Below, in pieces: positions 3 to 44,104 of a stretch of DNA of 64,000 bases. Position numbers and translations under genes: made by a program. The stretch comes from Natrinema caseinilyticum. GTDB taxonomy: Archaea; Halobacteriota; Halobacteria; Halobacteriales; Natrialbaceae. Each line of letters begins with the position of its first letter. Positions within the stretch are counted from its first letter, which is position 1. The notes under the pieces are model-generated. The model did not search any database. It saw only the letters and a program-made list of their open reading frames with translations, and was not told the origin of the DNA. Location: NCBI RefSeq assembly GCF_024227435.1, contig NZ_CP100445.1, forward strand, positions 1,733,369-1,797,368, read 5' to 3'.

Positions 3-3000
3 GAATTCGACGTCGTCACCGAGCGAACCCGCCGGCGGATCATCGGACGGCTGCTCGCCGAAACCGACTACGAGTTCGCGGCCGCGGCGACCCGCGACGA
101 CGGTTCGCCGGCCGACCTCGCCGCGTCGGTCGATCGATTCATTCGGGCGATGAGCCGGGAGAACATCACGCCCGACCAACTACGGGACGGCCTGCCGCCG
201 GTTCGAACGCTCGAACTGTGCAACGAGTTCGTCCTGTGGCTCGAACGAACCGCGGCGGAGGAACTGTCGTTCGACAACGAGGCGCTCCGGTACTTCAATC
301 GGGACGAACACGTAGACGGCGCCCGGGAGTCGCTGGTCGACTACGGCAAACTCATCTCGTACTGCCGGGAGAAGATCGCCGAGGCGCCGGCGGCCTTCCG
401 CGACGAGGCGGTGGTTCGCGACGTGGATCGCTACCTCAGAGTCCTGCAACAGTGCGTCACGAACACCATCGAGGCGCTCACGCTCGAGGACCCGAGCACG
501 AAGCACCTGCCGCGGGCGCTGTTCGGCAACGAAATCTGGGGACGGGCCACGAACAGAATCGAACAGACCCCGTTCGGCCGCCTGAAACAGTACGTCGAGT
601 TCCTCCGGCTGGCACGTCACTACGCCGACGTCTACGCTGACTACCACGAGCACCTCGCGGCCGAGCGGACGATGGACTTCGACGAACTGGTGCGGACGGC
701 GACCGAACTACTGGCGGACGACTCGATCGCGGACGAGATCACCGGCCAGTGGACGCAGGTCTACTGCGACGAATTCCAGGACACCGACAGGACGCAGTTC
801 GCACTGCTCACTCGACTCACGGACGGCCGCGACCGGCCGGATCTGCTCGCGATCGGCGACAAGGATCAGGCGATATACGGCTGGCGCGGCACCGACCGCG
901 AGGGACTGGATAGACTGGCCGACGCCTCCGACGACCACGAAGCGATCGAACTCGAGCTCAACTTTCGCTCGAGACAGGAGATTCTCGACCTGACGAACGG
1001 GTGTGATTACGGACCCCAGGCCTCGAAGACGCTTCGCGAGGACGGGCGGACGCCCGGAACGTACGACGAGGACGAGCCGCCGGACCGCGTGGTCAAGATC
1101 GAAAGCGAGGGGGTGGCTCAGTCGACGGCCGAACAGGTGGCGACGACTGTCTCACGGCTGTTGAACGGCGCAGCCGAGAACGTTCCTCGGCGGTCGCTGG
1201 GCGATATCGCCGTCATCGTCCGGACAAACCGTCACGCACAGACGATCGCGGACGAACTCCGGGAACTGCAGATACCCCACGAGATATCCGGCTCGCCGCG
1301 GGGAGAGATTTCCCCGGGGATGCAGACGGTCCTCTCGTACCTCCGGGTGCTCGTCGACCCGGACGCCGATGCACACCTCCGGCGCGTGCTCCTCTACCGC
1401 TACCGGCTCACCGAAGGCGATCTGCGGACGCTTCACGCGCGGGACGGCTCGCTGTACGAGGCAGTGATGAACGCGGAGACGACGACGGGCGAAGCGACCG
1501 AGGCGGACGGACGGCCGGATCGACTCGAGCGGCCGGACAGCGTCGAGCGGGCTCGAGACCACCTCGCTGCGCTCGAGCGGTTCCGGGACGTCTACCCGCT
1601 CTCGGGGTTCGTCCGCCGGTTCCGAGAGCTCACTCGAATCGAGTGGTTCTGCTCGAGCGAGGAACGGGCCGAATTCGACCGCCTCGAGCGATTCGTCGAG
1701 GCGTACGATTCCGATGGCGTCGTCCAGTCGCTCTCGACGGAGTTCGTCGAGGCGCTCGCACAGACGCTGCGAAGCGGCGGGAGCGACCGCACCCGCGGGA
1801 CCCGATCCGCCGACAGCGTCGACGTCATGACGGTCCACCAGGCCAAGGGCCTCGAGTTCGACACCGTCCTCGTTCCATACCTCTCCGACGAGGAGTGGTG
1901 CGTCGACGGGGATTACGTCGAGCGAGCGCGCTACGGGCTGTTAGCCGCCACGCTCGACGAGGACGTCACGTCTCCGCTGCTCGCCGATCTGTCCGCCGAG
2001 CGGGTCAGCGAGGAGTGGCGGGTGCTTCACGTCGCGCTCACGCGGGCCGAAAACCACCTGTTCGTCTTCGGATCGGATTACGAGTACGACGGCGACGAGG
2101 AGCAACTCGCCGCCTCGACCGCGGAAGCGTGCCTGGCGACCGACATCGAGTGGTCGGTCACCGGCCAGCGGATGGACCTCTGGTCGTCGCTGACCGAGAG
2201 TTTCGAACGGGTTCGAGAGACCTATCCCGAGACCGTCGTCGACCGCACGGACGAAATCGCCGCTTCGGCGGGCGTTCGTCCGGGGACGATCACCTACTAT
2301 GCGGACCACGGAGACCGCCCCGTCGAACCGCTCGAGACCCGCCGCGCGATCGAAACCGCGCACCGATTGGGTCGGCTGCTTCGCGACGGAACGCTGTTGG
2401 CGGCGGCCGACGCGGCGAGCCACGCCGGCGGACAACTGCGAAGCGACGAACGTGGCACCGGAACCCCGCTCACGCCGGTTCCAAGCGGCCGCCAGCCGTC
2501 CGCACTGACGACCGACACCGTTCGGTTCCCGGTCGAGACGCTCGCGTCGGCGACCGACGTTCCGGTCGCGATGCGCCACAGCTACTCCGCGATCGACACC
2601 CACGAGACCTGCCCCCGGAAGCACTACCTCGATCACGTCGTCCGCGCGATCGACGATCCGCTCGAGCCGACGGGAGGCCGTGGCGAGACGACGAGCACGA
2701 ACGGCGGGACCCCAGTATCGAGCGGCGAGACGGCGGCGCGAATCGTCGGCACCGTCTTCCACGACGTCGCAGAGGAGGCGTTCCACCGGAACGACGAGAC
2801 TCGAGACGCGTGGCGCGACGCAGCCGTTCGACAGCTCACCGCGCGTGACCTGCTCGCCCACCGCGAATCCGTTCTCGCGTGCGTCGACCGCTACTTCGAA
2901 GCGACGGCACCCGCGTTCGACCGGCCGGTCGCCGACTGGGAGCCGCTGGCCGCGGAACTGCCGTTCTCGCTCGAGGACGTAGCCGGCGTGGCGGGAACCG

Positions 3001-3383
3001 TCGTCGGCGTCGTCGACACGGTCCGACGACTCCCCGACGGCGGCCTCGCAGTGCTGGATTACAAGACCACCGCCGAACGGATCGCTCCCGACGACGCGGT
3101 CCAGCTCGCGCTCTACCGTCGGGCCTGTGCTGACCGGTTCGACGAACCGATCGCGGCCGTCGGCTACGTCTACGTCGGCGACGTCGAGGGCCCCCGAATC
3201 GACCTCTTCGCGACCGACGAGCTTCCGTCGTGGGAAACCGTCCTCGAGACGCTCGAGGCGGTCGACGACCCCTCGTTCACGGAGACGACAGCGGGCGATC
3301 ACTGTCGATACTGTCCGCATCGATCGCTGGGGTGTGGACCGGCGACGGACGCGTCGGACGGCGGGACGTCGGGTGATGGGTGA
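3..3383 (+). CDS. UvrD/Rep-family helicase fused to PD-(D/E)XK nuclease, 5' partial
   Basis: ATP-dependent DNA helicase-nuclease for DNA repair or recombination. The frame is open from base 3, so the N-terminus with Walker A lies outside the window; the ATG at 150 is internal. Superfamily 1 motifs follow in order: DEFQDTD (about 768-790), AIGDKDQAIYGWRG (about 848-890), LELNFRS (about 955-975), VMTVHQAKGLEFD (about 1826-1864) and LHVALTRAENHL (about 2024-2060). The last third is RecB/AddB-like: a lone Cys in HETCPRKHY (near 2610), VLDYKTTA (near 3052) and the closing cluster CRYCPHRSLGC (near 3302-3336). Four such cysteines are typical of the 4Fe-4S-bound nuclease fold. The stop codon lies inside a heptamer repeat array. 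Family assignment is firm; which pathway it serves is not visible. Confidence 0.9.
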   Translation, partial: EFDVVTERTRRRIIGRLLAETDYEFAAAATRDDGSPADLAASVDRFIRAMSRENITPDQLRDGLPPVRTLELCNEFVLWLERTAAEELSFDNEALRYFNRDEHVDGARESLVDYGKLISYCREKIAEAPAAFRDEAVVRDVDRYLRVLQQCVTNTIEALTLEDPSTKHLPRALFGNEIWGRATNRIEQTPFGRLKQYVEFLRLARHYADVYADYHEHLAAERTMDFDELVRTATELLADDSIADEITGQWTQVYCDEFQDTDRTQFALLTRLTDGRDRPDLLAIGDKDQAIYGWRGTDREGLDRLADASDDHEAIELELNFRSRQEILDLTNGCDYGPQASKTLREDGRTPGTYDEDEPPDRVVKIESEGVAQSTAEQVATTVSRLLNGAAENVPRRSLGDIAVIVRTNRHAQTIADELRELQIPHEISGSPRGEISPGMQTVLSYLRVLVDPDADAHLRRVLLYRYRLTEGDLRTLHARDGSLYEAVMNAETTTGEATEADGRPDRLERPDSVERARDHLAALERFRDVYPLSGFVRRFRELTRIEWFCSSEERAEFDRLERFVEAYDSDGVVQSLSTEFVEALAQTLRSGGSDRTRGTRSADSVDVMTVHQAKGLEFDTVLVPYLSDEEWCVDGDYVERARYGLLAATLDEDVTSPLLADLSAERVSEEWRVLHVALTRAENHLFVFGSDYEYDGDEEQLAASTAEACLATDIEWSVTGQRMDLWSSLTESFERVRETYPETVVDRTDEIAASAGVRPGTITYYADHGDRPVEPLETRRAIETAHRLGRLLRDGTLLAAADAASHAGGQLRSDERGTGTPLTPVPSGRQPSALTTDTVRFPVETLASATDVPVAMRHSYSAIDTHETCPRKHYLDHVVRAIDDPLEPTGGRGETTSTNGGTPVSSGETAARIVGTVFHDVAEEAFHRNDETRDAWRDAAVRQLTARDLLAHRESVLACVDRYFEATAPAFDRPVADWEPLAAELPFSLEDVAGVAGTVVGVVDTVRRLPDGGLAVLDYKTTAERIAPDDAVQLALYRRACADRFDEPIAAVGYVYVGDVEGPRIDLFATDELPSWETVLETLEAVDDPSFTETTAGDHCRYCPHRSLGCGPATDASDGGTSGDG

Positions 3384-3433
3384 CGGGTAACGGATGACGG
3401 GCAACGGATGACAGGTGACGGGCGGCGGGCGAG
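3371..3433. repeat. degenerate 7-bp tandem repeat array, nine units
   Basis: Nine consecutive heptamers read gggtgat, gggtgac, gggtaac, ggatgac, gggcaac, ggatgac, aggtgac, gggcggc, gggcgag; consensus GGGTGAC. The array overlaps the last four codons and the stop of the helicase-nuclease gene and runs into the spacer before the next promoter. A 7-bp unit is not a multiple of three, so gain or loss of a unit would change the C-terminal reading frame. Confidence 0.75.
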
Positions 3434-3473
3434 AACCGGACCGGAACCGTCGTGTTGCGCGTGCCGGCAACGA

Positions 3474-3480
3474 GTTATAA
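3474..3480 (+). promoter_or_regulatory. TATA box of the TOBE-domain gene
   Basis: The sequence gttataa is centred about 28 nt before the ATG at 3506. That is the usual archaeal spacing for a TATA box to a leaderless start, and it supports choosing 3506 over the upstream in-frame ATG at 3452. Confidence 0.6.
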
Positions 3481-3505
3481 CTCGCTCATCGCGGTGGAAC
3501 CTCGT

Positions 3506-3721
3506 ATGGCACTCAGTGCTCGCAATCGACTCCAGGGAACCGTACGGTCGCTCGAGACGGACGGAATCATGGCCGACATCGAGATCGAGACGGACGGGGG
3601 ACAGACCGTCACGGCGGTGATAACGAGCGACTCCGTGGAGCGACTCGGAATCGACGAGGGTGACGACGTCAACGCAGTAATCAAAGCGACCGAGGTGATG
3701 GTCGAAAACGCGTCGGATTAA
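3506..3721 (+). CDS. TOBE (Mop-like) small molybdate-binding-type protein
   Basis: A 71-residue protein that starts MALSARNRLQGTV and fits a single TOBE/Mop domain: a beta-rich unit with alternating short hydrophobic strands (VRSLETDGIMADIEIE, VTAVITSDSVERLGI, VNAVIKATEVMV). Free-standing Mop-type proteins bind molybdate or tungstate oxyanions in the cytoplasm, or act in regulation. The start at 3506 is chosen from the leaderless TATA spacing. The stop codon shares its ttaa bases with the stop of the convergent folate gene, leaving no intergenic space. Ligand and role are inferred from the family only. Confidence 0.8.
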   Translation: MALSARNRLQGTVRSLETDGIMADIEIETDGGQTVTAVITSDSVERLGIDEGDDVNAVIKATEVMVENASD

Positions 3722-6327
3722 GCGGTCCAGTCGAACCGCTCGGGGTCGCGCGCCGAAAGCGCCGTCCGGACCGCGGCGACGTTCTCCGGAACGTCGTGGA
3801 CGCGGACGATGTCGGCACCGCGGTCGGCCGCGAGTGCGGTGGCCGCGACGGTCGCCTCGAGCCGCTCGCCGTGATCCCGCCCGACCCGGGCGAACATGCT
3901 TTTGTGGGAGTGCCCGAACAGCACTGGGCATCCGAGCGCGTGAAACTCGTCGATTCGGTCGAGCAGTTCGAAGCTTTCGGCCGACGACTTCCCGAAGCCG
4001 ATACCGGGATCGACGATGATACGCTCGCGGTCCAGGCCGGCCTTCTCGGCCAGCAACACCCGTTCGGAGAGGCGATCGATGACGTCCGCGACGACGTCGT
4101 CGTACTGGATATCGCGATCGGGTACGACCGGCGCATCGATACTGTGCATCACCACCAGCCCCGCATCGTGCTCGGCGGCGACGAAGCGCATCTCGGGATC
4201 TTCGAGCCCGGAGACGTCGTTGATGATGTCGGCACCGGCCTCGAGCGCCGCGTCGGCGACGGCGGCCCGGCGGGTGTCGACCGAAATCTGCGCGTCCAGG
4301 TCGGCGATGCGATCGATCACCGGCACGACGCGGTCCAGTTCCTCGTCGATCGGGACGGGGGCCGCCCCCGGCCGCGTCGACTCGCCGCCGACGTCGATCA
4401 CGTCGACGTCCGCTTCGACCATCGACTCGGCGCGAGCCACCGCGTCCTCGACGGCGTCGTACCGGCCGCCGTCGTGGAAGCTGTCGGGAGTGACGTTCAA
4501 AATGCCCATTACCGCCGTTCGGTCCGTCCAGGGAAACGCGGCCTCGCTCCCGCCGGCCGCCCGGTCGGCGTCCGAGCGGGACACTCCCCGCGAGCGGGTC
4601 CCGGTCGCTCGTCGCGAGTCGTCCACGCCGTCAGCGCCGTCAGCGCCGTCGCCATCGATCGCGCCGGCGTCCCGCTCGAGAACGTCCCGTAATTCCCGAG
4701 CGACGTCGGTCAGCCCGTGTGGTCGAGCGCGGGCCTCGAGCCGCTCGACGAGGGCCTCGAACTGCGTGAGCGTGCCCATCAGGACGGCGTCGACGGCCTC
4801 GTCGTCCCGCTCGAGGCCGGAGAGGGCGCACTCGCCGCCGAGCCGGAGCAGTTCCGCCTTGAGAACCGTGGCCTGCCGATCGCGGAGTACCGTCCTGACG
4901 ACCCGGTGGACGGCGTCCCCGTCCAGGCGCTCGACATCGCCAGCGGCGACGTTCGCGTCCTCGAGCGCCTCCCGAGCGTCCGAGAGGTCGCGGACGCGCT
5001 TTGGAACGTCGGTTCGGGTCCACCGCGAGCGGGCCTCCGCGACCGTGAACAGGGAGCCGGTGACGAGGAGACAGTCGTCGCGTTCGGCCGCATCGAGTGC
5101 GGTCGCGAGGGCGTCTTGAACCGCAGCCTCGACCCGGATCGAAACTGCACCGGCGTCGTCAAACGCCGCTGCCAGGACGGCGGGATCTTCGGCGCGATCG
5201 AGAGACGGGTCGGTCGTGACGACCGCGTCCGGCGTCGGGAGCGCGTCGATCATCGCGCGGTGGTCCTTGTCGTGCATCGCACCGAAGACGACGTGGAGGC
5301 GGTCGTAGTCGTAGGTGTCGAGCGTTTCGGCGAGGCGCTCGCAGGCGCCCGGGTTGTGCGCCCCGTCTAACACGACCAGCGGCTCCGTGTTCATCACCTC
5401 GAATCGGCCCGGCCAGAAGGCGCTTCGGAGTCCACGCTCGAGGTGCGCGTCCGAGACGTCGCCGATCTGGGCCGCGAGCGCGGCGGCGATGCCGGCGTTG
5501 ACGGCCTGATGCTCGCCCAGCAGTGGAATCCGGGTCTCGACGTCCCAGCCGTCAGCCACGATCGAAACGGCGGCTTCGGTGTGGTTCGTCCGCCCGCCGT
5601 AGGCGACGCGGACGTCCGGCCCGGGCGTCGAATCCCCGGCGCTTACACCCTCGTTCGGCTCGGTTTCGTCCGTCGCGGTCCCGACGGTCACGACCTCGCC
5701 GGCCACGTCCCGGACCGCCTCGAGCGGGGCGCCGGTGACGCCGGTCACCAGCGGGACGTCGTCGGGGGAGACGTGGGCTTTGTCGCGTGCGATTTCGGCC
5801 TCGGTGTCGCCCAGAATGCCCGTGTGTTCGAGCGTCACGCTCGTCACCGCGCTCGCGGTCGGGTCGACGACGCTCGTGGCGTCGTACTTGCCGCCGATAC
5901 CGACCTCGAGGACGGCGACGTCGACGTCTTCGCGGCCGAACTGCCACAGGGCCATGGCGGTCATCGTCTCGAAGAACGTGGGAGACTCCCCGTCGGCCGC
6001 GCGATCCGTGATGTATTCGCGGGCGGACTCGACGAAGTCACAGACGGCCGCCCGCGGAATTTTCCGACCGTCGACGCGAATCCGCTCGCGCAGGTCCTCG
6101 AGGTGTGGCGACGTGTAGAGGCCGACAGAATACCCGGCTTCCCGCAGAACCCGCTCGAGCATTCGGGCCGTACTCCCTTTCCCGTTGGAACCGGCTATCT
6201 GAACGAAATCGACGTCAGCGTGTGGGTCCTCGAGGTGGGCCAGGAGCCGAGCCGTCGACTCCGTGCCCGGCTTCGGGCGGAACCGCCGCAGATCGAAACA
6301 GAAGTCTGCGGCCTCGTGATACTCCAT
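3718..6327 (-). CDS. folCP: bifunctional dihydrofolate synthase / dihydropteroate synthase (FolC-FolP fusion)
   Basis: An 869-residue folate-biosynthesis fusion. The first ~420 residues are a Mur-ligase-type FolC domain with the ATP loop SNGKGST (residues 47-53), adding glutamate to dihydropteroate. The C-terminal domain from about residue 600 is dihydropteroate synthase, with GILNVTPDSFHDGG, DVGGESTRPGA and VDPGIGFGKS, joining pterin pyrophosphate to p-aminobenzoate. A FolC-FolP fusion is established in Haloferax. A roughly 180-residue middle segment links the two domains; it includes a predicted helical part (VLRDRQATVLKAELLRLGG) that I cannot name. The start MEYHEAADFCF is preferred to the upstream ATG at 6438, whose extension reads like spacer. 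It is convergent with the TOBE gene. Confidence 0.95.
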   Translation of the reverse strand: MEYHEAADFCFDLRRFRPKPGTESTARLLAHLEDPHADVDFVQIAGSNGKGSTARMLERVLREAGYSVGLYTSPHLEDLRERIRVDGRKIPRAAVCDFVESAREYITDRAADGESPTFFETMTAMALWQFGREDVDVAVLEVGIGGKYDATSVVDPTASAVTSVTLEHTGILGDTEAEIARDKAHVSPDDVPLVTGVTGAPLEAVRDVAGEVVTVGTATDETEPNEGVSAGDSTPGPDVRVAYGGRTNHTEAAVSIVADGWDVETRIPLLGEHQAVNAGIAAALAAQIGDVSDAHLERGLRSAFWPGRFEVMNTEPLVVLDGAHNPGACERLAETLDTYDYDRLHVVFGAMHDKDHRAMIDALPTPDAVVTTDPSLDRAEDPAVLAAAFDDAGAVSIRVEAAVQDALATALDAAERDDCLLVTGSLFTVAEARSRWTRTDVPKRVRDLSDAREALEDANVAAGDVERLDGDAVHRVVRTVLRDRQATVLKAELLRLGGECALSGLERDDEAVDAVLMGTLTQFEALVERLEARARPHGLTDVARELRDVLERDAGAIDGDGADGADGVDDSRRATGTRSRGVSRSDADRAAGGSEAAFPWTDRTAVMGILNVTPDSFHDGGRYDAVEDAVARAESMVEADVDVIDVGGESTRPGAAPVPIDEELDRVVPVIDRIADLDAQISVDTRRAAVADAALEAGADIINDVSGLEDPEMRFVAAEHDAGLVVMHSIDAPVVPDRDIQYDDVVADVIDRLSERVLLAEKAGLDRERIIVDPGIGFGKSSAESFELLDRIDEFHALGCPVLFGHSHKSMFARVGRDHGERLEATVAATALAADRGADIVRVHDVPENVAAVRTALSARDPERFDWTA

Positions 6328-41242: not shown

Positions 41243-41864
41243 GCTCTCACCGCCCGTCGCGGGCGTCGTCGGTGCGTCGTCAGGCTGTGGGGTTGACTAT
41301 CGTCCATAGAGCGGTCGTTGCTCGGTGAATGCTGGTCAGCGACAATACATCCGTCGAAACGGGGTGGAAAATCGGCGGCTCCGAAGCCCCTACCTGGGCG
41401 GACGTAAGTCGTCGGAGGGAGGCGACCGAATCCCCGTGAATCGTCACGTCCGCCCGGATACGAAAACGGCGCCACGAGGGTCGTCGTGGCGATCGGACGC
41501 GGCCGCGACGGTAGCAGGCATACCCGACAATTCGGGCGGCAAGCGTCATAGCCCTTTCGTCGTCGGATAGCCGCCACTGCTCCGGGACGACACCGCCGTC
41601 TCGAACGGGTGGCGCGCTCGATACGGCGAAGATTCGTTCTCGAGGCCGTCGGTCATCGCTTTCGATCCGGAACCCGATCCGTCGCACGACGGAAGCAATA
41701 TCGCGACTCACGGCGCCGAAAACGGGCTATCGACGGCACGATCGCGTCGATGCAGACGAGAACAAAATCGGCCGCTCACTCGGCAGTCCGGGTCGATTCG
41801 GATGGGGCGCTCGCGGGGGTCGATGGCGTCGACCGAAAAAACCGAACGCGTTCGCGGTAGGCAG
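41243..41864. other. 622-bp region between valS and the peptide gene, no supported gene
   Basis: This stretch lies upstream of valS and downstream of the peptide gene, so it should contain the valS promoter. A 10-bp inverted repeat (gggcggacgt, 41396-41405; acgtccgccc, 41446-41455) is present, of unknown meaning. T-rich DNA on the minus strand just after the peptide stop (ttttttcgg, near 41834-41842) may end its transcript. The open frames here are Arg/Ser-rich shadows typical of non-coding high-GC DNA. Confidence 0.5.
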
Positions 41865-42002
41865 TTAGCAACCGGTTTCCGCACAGGACATCGTGACCGG
41901 TCCCTCCTCGCCGAGCGCCAGCGTCGTAAGCATCGGGGAGGCGTTCGCGCGTTCTTCGAGGTCTTCGACGAAATGCACATCATCCGTATTGTCTGCGGAC
42001 AT
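41865..42002 (-). CDS. 45-residue peptide, candidate graspetide-type RiPP precursor
   Basis: A small gene starting MSADNTDDVHFVEDLEERAN and ending in a Cys-containing tail. The first ~21 residues are acidic and helix-like (leader-like). The last ~22 contain two related blocks, LTTLALGEEG and VTMSCAETG, that place Thr/Ser before Glu. That is the donor and acceptor pattern for side-chain ester or amide crosslinks made by ATP-grasp enzymes. A TATA-like aaatatta (42026-42033) lies 27 nt before the ATG, so it is probably leaderless; T-rich DNA follows the stop. It is divergent from the ATP-grasp gene at 42252. The coding call rests on promoter spacing and context; the product is inference. Confidence 0.6.
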   Translation of the reverse strand: MSADNTDDVHFVEDLEERANASPMLTTLALGEEGPVTMSCAETGC

Positions 42003-42251
42003 ACAGGACGGCGGTCAACGGCCACAAATATTAAGCTTTCTCCGGGTTAATATATCACCTCCAATAGACGTGTTTTCCGTTTTATTCTCCGCGAGAACAC
42101 AGCGATCCTCACCCGTGCGGACCGGTTCTGATCGGGACGGTACAGGCGCGTCCGAAAAGTGCCTGACAGTCGGCGAGCCGTCTTCCCGGTGGGAAATACC
42201 TATACAATTCGCCTGTAGAATTATGTGTTCGAGCGACGGAATAATGTCGTA
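42003..42251. promoter_or_regulatory. divergent promoter region of the peptide and ATP-grasp genes
   Basis: 249 bp with an outward TATA-like box at each end: aaatatta (42026-42033) for the peptide gene, and gaattatg (42219-42226), about 30 nt before the ATP-grasp ATG. A second AT-rich block (gttaatatatcacctccaat, 42046-42065) and cctatacaattcgcc (42199-42213) lie between. Shared control of precursor and enzyme is likely. Confidence 0.5.
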
Positions 42252-43187
42252 ATGGGTGTCCTGTTAATCGGCCCGAAAGCGGACCCGCAGGTCGACGTGG
42301 TGACGCGGGAACTCGAATCGCGTGGAGTCGAAACGAGCCTGTGGGATGCGTCGTCTTGGCCCGGAGCGACACCAGCGACGGTCCGGCAGGCGGCGGACGA
42401 AACGCGGATTTCAATCGACGGGACCGGTTCCATTCTCGACGAGTGCCACACGATCTACTTGCGACGCCTCGGCCTCGATCCACGCTATCCGGAGTTCGAG
42501 GCCGACTTCGAGGAGCGACCGCTGTCGGTGATCAATCAGTTACGCGAGTATCGCGGCCTCCTCCTCTCGGCCATCAGGTCCCTCCAGGACGACGGTGTGC
42601 GGGTGATCAACCCACCCGACGTGCTCGGCATTCACGCCCTCAAACCCTGGCAGCTCTCGACGCTCGCGGCGGCCGGGATTCCGGTGCCGGAGACCTGCTC
42701 GACGAACGATCCGGCCGAAGTGCGGGCCTTCGCGGACCGCGTCGAGAACGTCATCTACAAGCCGATCGGCGGCGGCGGCCACGCACATCACCTCGAGAGC
42801 GACGATCTCGACGACGACAGACTCTCGCGGCTCGCGAACTCCCCCGTTCAGTTTCAAGAGCGCGTCGACGGGGACGACGTTCGCGTCTTCGTCGTCGACG
42901 GCGAAGTCGTCGCCGCGGCTCGCATCGTCTCGGATGCGCTCGATTACCGCAGCGAACGTCACGACGTCGAACGAATCGGACTCGAGTCCCTCGACCCCGA
43001 GATCGAACGGGCGGCCTGCCGTGCGGCCGAGCGGCTCGGCCTGCCGTTTACCGGCGTCGACGTGGTCGACGCGGCCGATCGCTTCGTCGTCCTCGAAGCG
43101 AACCCGTCACCGATGTTCGCGACGTTCGACGAACTCGCCGGAACGAAGGTTGCGAGCGAACTCGCGGGGTTCCTCGCCGACCCATGA
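42252..43187 (+). CDS. RimK-like ATP-grasp peptide ligase
   Basis: A 311-residue carboxylate-amine/hydroxyl ligase, starting MGVLLIGPKADPQVDVVTRE. The ATP-grasp parts are the ATP-lysine strand ENVIYKPIGGGGHAHHLE, VQFQERVDGDDVRVFVVDGE with VVAAARI, and the metal-binding FVVLEANPSPMFATFDE. The N-terminal half (residues 1-110) is the variable recognition domain. RimK-like enzymes glutamylate proteins or, in microviridin/graspetide systems, crosslink acidic and Ser/Thr/Lys side chains of a precursor. The precursor-like ORF upstream and the overlapping protease favour the second role. The stop overlaps the next start (ATGA). Confidence 0.85.
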   Translation: MGVLLIGPKADPQVDVVTRELESRGVETSLWDASSWPGATPATVRQAADETRISIDGTGSILDECHTIYLRRLGLDPRYPEFEADFEERPLSVINQLREYRGLLLSAIRSLQDDGVRVINPPDVLGIHALKPWQLSTLAAAGIPVPETCSTNDPAEVRAFADRVENVIYKPIGGGGHAHHLESDDLDDDRLSRLANSPVQFQERVDGDDVRVFVVDGEVVAAARIVSDALDYRSERHDVERIGLESLDPEIERAACRAAERLGLPFTGVDVVDAADRFVVLEANPSPMFATFDELAGTKVASELAGFLADP

Positions 43188-44104
43188 CGACGAGCGGCGA
43201 TGGCGAATCCGGTACCGACCGAACGCACGACGGGGCTCACGTCCGCCGCAACTTCGGATACACGTGGGGCGAGACCGGTGGAACACTGTGGCTCCGCAAC
43301 GACAACGGTGACTACAAGCGAATCGATCCCGCGTTCCGGGAGCCCCTCCGCGCCCTCGCCCGCGGCGAGCGAGAACCCTCGGCAGCCGATCCCGCCGTTC
43401 TCGAGGCGATCGATGTGCTGGCGGATGAGGGGTATCTCGAGCCCAGCGGCGAGAGACGGCGACTCGAGATGTCCGCGGACATTCGGCTGTGGCCGCGGCT
43501 CGTCGCGACCGGAGCGGTGACGATCGTCCTCTGTGCGCTGATCGTGGCCCAGTGGGAGACGATCTGGAGCCCGCCGGGCTCGGTCGGAAAGACGGTCGTC
43601 CTCGCGCCGTTTTTCGTCGGTGCGACGCTTCTGCACGAACTCGGCCACTACGTGGCCGGTCGCCCCTATTTCGAGCCGTCGATTTCGATCGGGCGTCTGA
43701 ACGGGGTCATTCCGGCGGTGATCACGCGGACCGGAGACGCCTGGCAGTGTCCGCGCAACGTCCGAATCTGGATCAGCCTCGCCGGACCGGTCGTCGATAT
43801 CGTCGTGACGCTGGAACTGGCGATCGCGTTACTGCAGTTTCCCGGCTACAGCGTGCTCGGTTCGTGTATTCTCGTCCAGCTGTTCCGGCTGCTGTTCGTC
43901 CTCAATCCGCTCGTCGACGGCGACGGCTACTGGCTGTTCGTCGACGTGTTCGGAACCCACAACCTTCGAAACCACGCGTTCAGGGATTTGAAACGAGGGC
44001 GACCGACCCCGAAAGCGGCGTTCGCGCTCACGATCGTCGTCTTCACCGGCTGGTTCGTCGCCGCCAGCGGCTACTTCCTCGGCCACACGCTGGGCATTCT
44101 CTGA
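43184..44104 (+). CDS. PqqD-like/M50-family membrane metalloprotease
   Basis: A 306-residue protein translationally coupled to the ATP-grasp gene by a 4-bp overlap. Residues ~20-95 look PqqD-like (YTWGETGGTLWLRNDNGDYK, then VLEAIDVLADEGYLEPSGE), the fold used in many RiPP systems to hold the leader peptide. Next is a membrane M50 protease: FVGATLLHELGHYVAG carries HExxH, and FVLNPLVDGDGYWLFVD supplies the later Asp ligand, within about five helices. The likely job is leader removal or export of a modified peptide in the membrane. The PqqD assignment is by eye. Confidence 0.8.
   Translation: MTTSGDGESGTDRTHDGAHVRRNFGYTWGETGGTLWLRNDNGDYKRIDPAFREPLRALARGEREPSAADPAVLEAIDVLADEGYLEPSGERRRLEMSADIRLWPRLVATGAVTIVLCALIVAQWETIWSPPGSVGKTVVLAPFFVGATLLHELGHYVAGRPYFEPSISIGRLNGVIPAVITRTGDAWQCPRNVRIWISLAGPVVDIVVTLELAIALLQFPGYSVLGSCILVQLFRLLFVLNPLVDGDGYWLFVDVFGTHNLRNHAFRDLKRGRPTPKAAFALTIVVFTGWFVAASGYFLGHTLGIL

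Follow-up and report, generated by a model that had tools for sequence, protein, structure and literature searches.

A three-gene cassette of Natrinema caseinilyticum that probably encodes a plesiocin-type graspetide

A three-gene cassette of the haloarchaeon Natrinema caseinilyticum very probably makes a plesiocin-type graspetide, in which a ligase would form Thr-Glu esters, an M50 protease would cleave off the leader and protease inhibition would be the likeliest activity of the product. This assignment was made because the ligase is nearest to PsnB and a profile of the precursor peptide picks out PsnA2. The sequence-only reading had proposed a graspetide-type RiPP locus; the proposal was borne out and is narrowed here to the plesiocin type by these two matches. 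The analyzed stretch of 64,000 nucleotides (the window) contains a gene for a 45-residue peptide on the minus strand (41865-42002), divergent from two genes on the plus strand which encode a PsnB-like ATP-grasp ligase of 311 amino acids (42252-43187) and an M50-type intramembrane metalloprotease of 306 amino acids (43184-44104). The start of the ligase gene was placed at the ATG conserved among its homologues. The start of the M50 gene overlaps the end of the ligase gene by ATGA at 43184-43187, as had been noticed before.

The translation of the peptide gene is MSADNTDDVHFVEDLEERANASPMLTTLALGEEGPVTMSCAETGC. Homologues of this precursor adjoin the same ATP-grasp ligase in 11 of 11 other close loci examined (L058-L065 and L066-L068, which together with the window make 12), and in every close locus examined the distance to the ligase or protease gene is within about 1 kb. 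An additional tandem set of three precursors was found beside the ligase in one metagenome-assembled genome (MAG). A search of 100 relatives revealed the precursor both within the genus and in further genera of the taxonomic family. In the alignment of 12 precursors the residues H10, F11, E13, L15-R18, N20, A21, T26, T27, G31 and E32 are invariant; the linker and the tail vary, with T26, T27, G31 and E32 fixed. The leader motif VHFVEDLEERANA (residues 9-21; 41940-41978, minus strand) is nearly invariant in the close homologues. For most species pairs synonymous changes amounted to 0.2-0.85 per site versus 0.02-0.26 for non-synonymous ones, pN/pS was about 0.1-0.4, and the precursor is under purifying selection. 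Homologues beside the ligase together with this selection establish the 45-residue ORF as a real gene, as the sequence-only reading had supposed; conservation of the peptide beside the ligase in relatives, which it had named as a check, was observed in all close loci. By inspection, AT-rich TATA-like elements were recognized upstream of most precursor homologues. In the window the archaeal BRE/TATA-like sequence GAAAGCTTAATATTTG (42025-42040, minus strand), 23-38 nt upstream of the precursor start, is the putative promoter element. The congener G028, which has neither ligase nor protease at the site, carries a decayed precursor beside valS (L086:6666-6758), consisting of a leader remnant devoid of a start codon and of the TT...GE core.

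A profile of the precursors was compared with 177,635 distinct PDB sequences. The top match was the PsnA2 14-38 peptide co-crystallized with PsnB. This peptide, FIEDLGKVTGGKGGPYTTLAIGEE, aligned to the profile FVEDLEERSNA...TTLAxGEE with 14.4 bits and an E-value of 0.26, which is modest by itself. None of 20,000 shuffles of the PsnA2 peptide scored as high, the best reaching 11.2 versus 14.4 bits. In the reverse search with PsnA2, none of the window's 1,208 stop-to-stop segments ranked above the 45-residue ORF. The profile was required for this match; phmmer with a single precursor gave none in the PDB. The leader element is FVEDL in the window and FIEDL in PsnA2, and the first core module, TTLALGEE (residues 26-33; 41904-41927, minus strand), has the same TTxxxxEE spacing as TTLAIGEE of PsnA2. 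It is followed by a second unit, TMSCAETGC (residues 37-45; 41868-41894, minus strand), which contains T-x4-E and two Cys. TTxxxxEE thus occurs only once in the window precursor, and the several repeats of plesiocin are absent, with a different second module instead. A related second subgroup carries the core TTxxxxEC (TTxATGECPEKC) in place of TTxxxxEE. Taken together, a peptide adjacent to the ligase combines a conserved leader with a variable core, and in this core a Thr/Ser nucleophile precedes Asp/Glu at conserved spacing (TTxxxxEE/EC invariant), as expected for a graspetide. No leader cleavage site was evident in the precursor.

The core modules were also found in other arrangements. The ligase of the MAG Halobacteriales archaeon QS_1_68_17 (locus L109) is 56% identical to that of the window, and its three tandem precursors (4710-5551) contain TTQACYETGC alone, TTANHFEE, and ITQACYETGC followed by TTFAIGEE, respectively. 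The module order of the third precursor is the reverse of that in the window. The ligase tree divides the subgroups by core type. The modules resemble units of a multi-core graspetide that have been shuffled. No M50 protease was found beside the L109 ligase. An MFS-like transporter ORF is located upstream of the precursors of this locus (2603-4021).

The identity of the ligase was determined by comparison with all PDB sequences. The best match over residues 3-304 was entry 7drm (E-value 1.7e-46, 162 bits), which we take to be PsnB from the name PsnA2 of the co-crystallized chain. The next match reached 52 bits and RimK 36 bits, and the graspetide synthetases MdnB-MdnC, CdnC and AMdnB just 27-31 bits. 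The ligase is hence of the graspetide-synthetase kind, with PsnB best by a wide margin. The ligase and precursor matches therefore point independently to the same known pair, PsnB/PsnA2. The best NCBIfam model was TIGR04187, 'ATP-grasp ribosomal peptide maturase', with 113 bits, under the cut-off of 350. All 31 haloarchaeal ligases compared keep the metal site residues D270, E282 and N284. In the ligase gene of N. gelatinilyticum (L058) a 7-bp tandem duplication (ACCCGCA) around 5999-6047 causes a frameshift near codon 10. The remainder of this gene is intact, so that it may be disrupted, may use a later start or may reflect an assembly error.

The sequence-only reading had described the product of the third gene as a PqqD-like segment followed by an HExxH membrane protease. 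The protease part of this description stands. The window protein contains HELGH (151-155) and NPLVDGDGY (241-249), and the M50 residues H151, E152, H155 and D247 are invariant in 24 homologues. Pfam PF02163 matched all 24, the window protein under the gathering score. The nearest NCBIfam models were those of daptide and epipeptide M50 proteases (NF041824 and NF058609), NF041824 matching with 2e-13, under the family cut-off; phmmer of the protease against the PDB gave no match. The PqqD label was not confirmed: Pfam detected PqqD in the N-terminal segment of 0 of 24 homologues, hhalign against haloarchaeal PqqD sequences gave a probability of 16.7%, and Foldseek searches with the whole protease and with the N-terminal domain returned no PqqD/RRE match. 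In the AlphaFold2 model (pLDDT 86.5) a soluble N-terminal domain of predicted b-b-b-a-a topology (43235-43489, plus strand) precedes the membrane part. This topology is compatible with an RRE, and the domain possibly binds the leader. The M50 gene is paired with the ligase in 12 of 12 close loci. Because of this constant pairing and of the kinship to daptide and epipeptide proteases, the M50 enzyme is probably the leader peptidase and perhaps also acts in release, a role proposed for the M50 protease EpeP (PMC10885120).

The cassette is located between valS and an HFX_2341-like gene. A functional partnership of the latter was considered and rejected, because 54 of 61 relatives carry this gene and related genomes have the valS-HFX_2341 interval without the cassette. 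In L059 the cassette lies on the opposite side of the HFX_2341-like gene, and in G028 this gene is located elsewhere in the genome. The closest locus was found in the genome of Natrinema gelatinilyticum, which belongs to the same genus group as the host. Between valS and the precursor, window positions 41243-41564 are 83-100% identical to N. gelatinilyticum, the level of coding DNA, and match no RNA family. The family of such loci is unevenly distributed (9 of the 125 genomes examined in the host's taxonomic family, 21 of 392 in the order), and in a phylum sample of 393 genomes matches were confined to the window's own taxonomic family. RNA families gave no match near the locus, and a search for viral carriage yielded only one distant match of 27% identity. 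Among the loci examined no transporter, no immunity or receptor gene and no further enzyme was found as a conserved neighbor of the cassette.

More distant haloarchaeal ligases (30-40% identity) are adjoined by ORFs of 28-40 residues in 16 loci. The leader of this branch resembles H-F-I-E-E-L...E-x-R-x-N, and the cores are varied. From both branches the 18 cores having both residue kinds were tested. T/S-x4-D/E was present in 17 of these 18 versus 6.0 expected in shuffles (0 of 2,000 shuffles as high), a count of related sequences that represent roughly seven or eight independent lineages. The core boundary set automatically by the script was misplaced for L070, L072 and L080, and these were read by eye. 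Four precursors (L071:8220-8330, L072:5368-5490, L074:7125-7223 and L080:5060-5152) have apparent cores devoid of Asp and Glu. A Thr-Glu ester mechanism does not explain these acid-free precursors; candidates for the carboxylate are the C-terminal carboxylate or acids of the leader. It is conceivable, and in our view improbable, that the window cassette belongs to a large haloarchaea-specific graspetide family whose ligases reach beyond side-chain esters, cyclizing the acid-free precursors via the C-terminal carboxylate (lactone or thiolactone) or by another bond to give haloarchaeal signals. Such a C-terminal lactone or thiolactone, if formed, would resemble bacterial autoinducing peptides. 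In L078, L079 and L081 one M50 gene and one precursor, with a TQHTSGPSDDK-like core, are common to two tandem, diverged ligases. Possibly these are two enzymes for two rings, by analogy to microviridin. In L070 and L073 a ligase and a precursor without M50 gene stand beside a five-gene operon that the two genomes have in common.

For the window cassette we infer an ester pattern, a cleavage step, export and an activity of the product. The ligase would recognize the leader VHFVEDLEER of the precursor, phosphorylate Glu side chains with ATP and join them to Thr hydroxyls, yielding hairpin-like ester rings. In TTLALGEE an inner ring T27-E32 and an outer ring T26-E33 are predicted. The outer ring is not universal, because the second subgroup has TTxxxxEC. 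The Cys-containing module might carry a further ester, T37-E42. The predicted mass loss would be 36 Da for two esters or 54 Da for three; with reduced Cys and Met1 retained, the calculated mass of the full-length peptide is 4756.06 Da unmodified, 4720.04 Da with two esters and 4702.03 Da with three. The membrane M50 protease would then remove the leader and may assist the release of the peptide. By analogy to plesiocin, the product most likely inhibits proteases.

Other explanations were weighed against this one. The RimK Pfam domain of the ligase, which is above cut-off, and 93 bits for TIGR00768 (rimK_fam) would also suit an ordinary RimK/LysX/MptN-type amino-acid ligase that acts on a protein or cofactor, the small ORF being unrelated. 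We regard this as extremely unlikely: all RimK/LysX/MptN models are far under their cut-offs (40 bits for the RimK equivalog PRK10446, cut-off 331), PsnB outscores RimK by 162 versus 36 bits, and throughout the close clade the small ORF adjoins the ligase, and it decays where the ligase is absent. A standard protein-glutamylating RimK, an outcome for which the sequence-only reading had asked to check, is thus very probably not what the gene encodes. The ligase could instead attach a free amino acid or make another bond, for example at a conserved Cys or at the C-terminus, with the M50 protease freeing a small C-terminal product. The M50 proteases TglG and TmoG are used in this way in pearlin pathways (PMC10885120), the window peptide has a C-terminal Cys, and several distant precursors have cores lacking Asp or Glu. 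On the other hand, the core residues that do not vary are precisely TT and GE at plesiocin spacing, the C-terminal residues of the precursors vary (C, W, S, I), and no other enzyme is conserved next to the cassette, so that we consider this pathway very unlikely.

Even with the cross-links formed as described, the product might be an antimicrobial or a signal instead of inhibiting proteases. Lanthipeptides of archaea have anti-archaeal activity and influence motility (PMC12144867), EpeP, a related M50 protease, acts in the pathway of an antimicrobial epipeptide (PMC10885120), and the cores differ strongly between clades. However, the closest known compounds, plesiocin and microviridin, are serine protease inhibitors (PMC13097080), and no conserved immunity or receptor gene lies by the cassette. 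An antimicrobial or signal is therefore a real possibility, although not the outcome we expect.

The RiPPs known from archaea are mainly lanthipeptides, YcaO products or radical-SAM products. Our literature search, which covered main texts without supplements, found no earlier report of archaeal graspetides, and a prior listing is possible. Graspetides are absent from the main text of a 2025 paper on archaeal RiPPs (PMC12144867), and haloarchaea are unnamed in that of a 2022 graspetide survey (PMC8939145). With its two enzymes and a modular core that evolves, such a compact system would bring a new cyclic-peptide class to genetically tractable haloarchaea. It would also supply peptide engineering with macrocyclases adapted to salt, and PsnB with a natural counterpart for comparison.

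Plesiocin (PsnA2/PsnB) of Plesiocystis pacifica shares with the window system a ligase homologous over its length, the leader element FxEDL and the TTxxxxEE core. It differs by its four repeats, whereas the window has one TTxxxxEE unit and a Cys-bearing T-x4-E module. Unlike plesiocin, the window system has an archaeal host, a dedicated M50 protease and a divergent gene order. With microviridin and the synthetases MdnB-MdnC, CdnC and AMdnB it has in common the logic of an ATP-grasp macrocyclase and a nucleophile before the acid in the core, but the window precursor has no PFFARFL leader and is served by a single ligase. Daptide and epipeptide loci likewise contain an intramembrane HExxH protease. 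In contrast to these, the window protease has an extra N-terminal domain and is not accompanied by enzymes of daptide or epipeptide pathways. Judged by their sequences, the enzyme and the core motif are recognizably those of a known bacterial graspetide, and what appears to be new is an archaeal plesiocin-type machinery with its own protease and its own set of modules.
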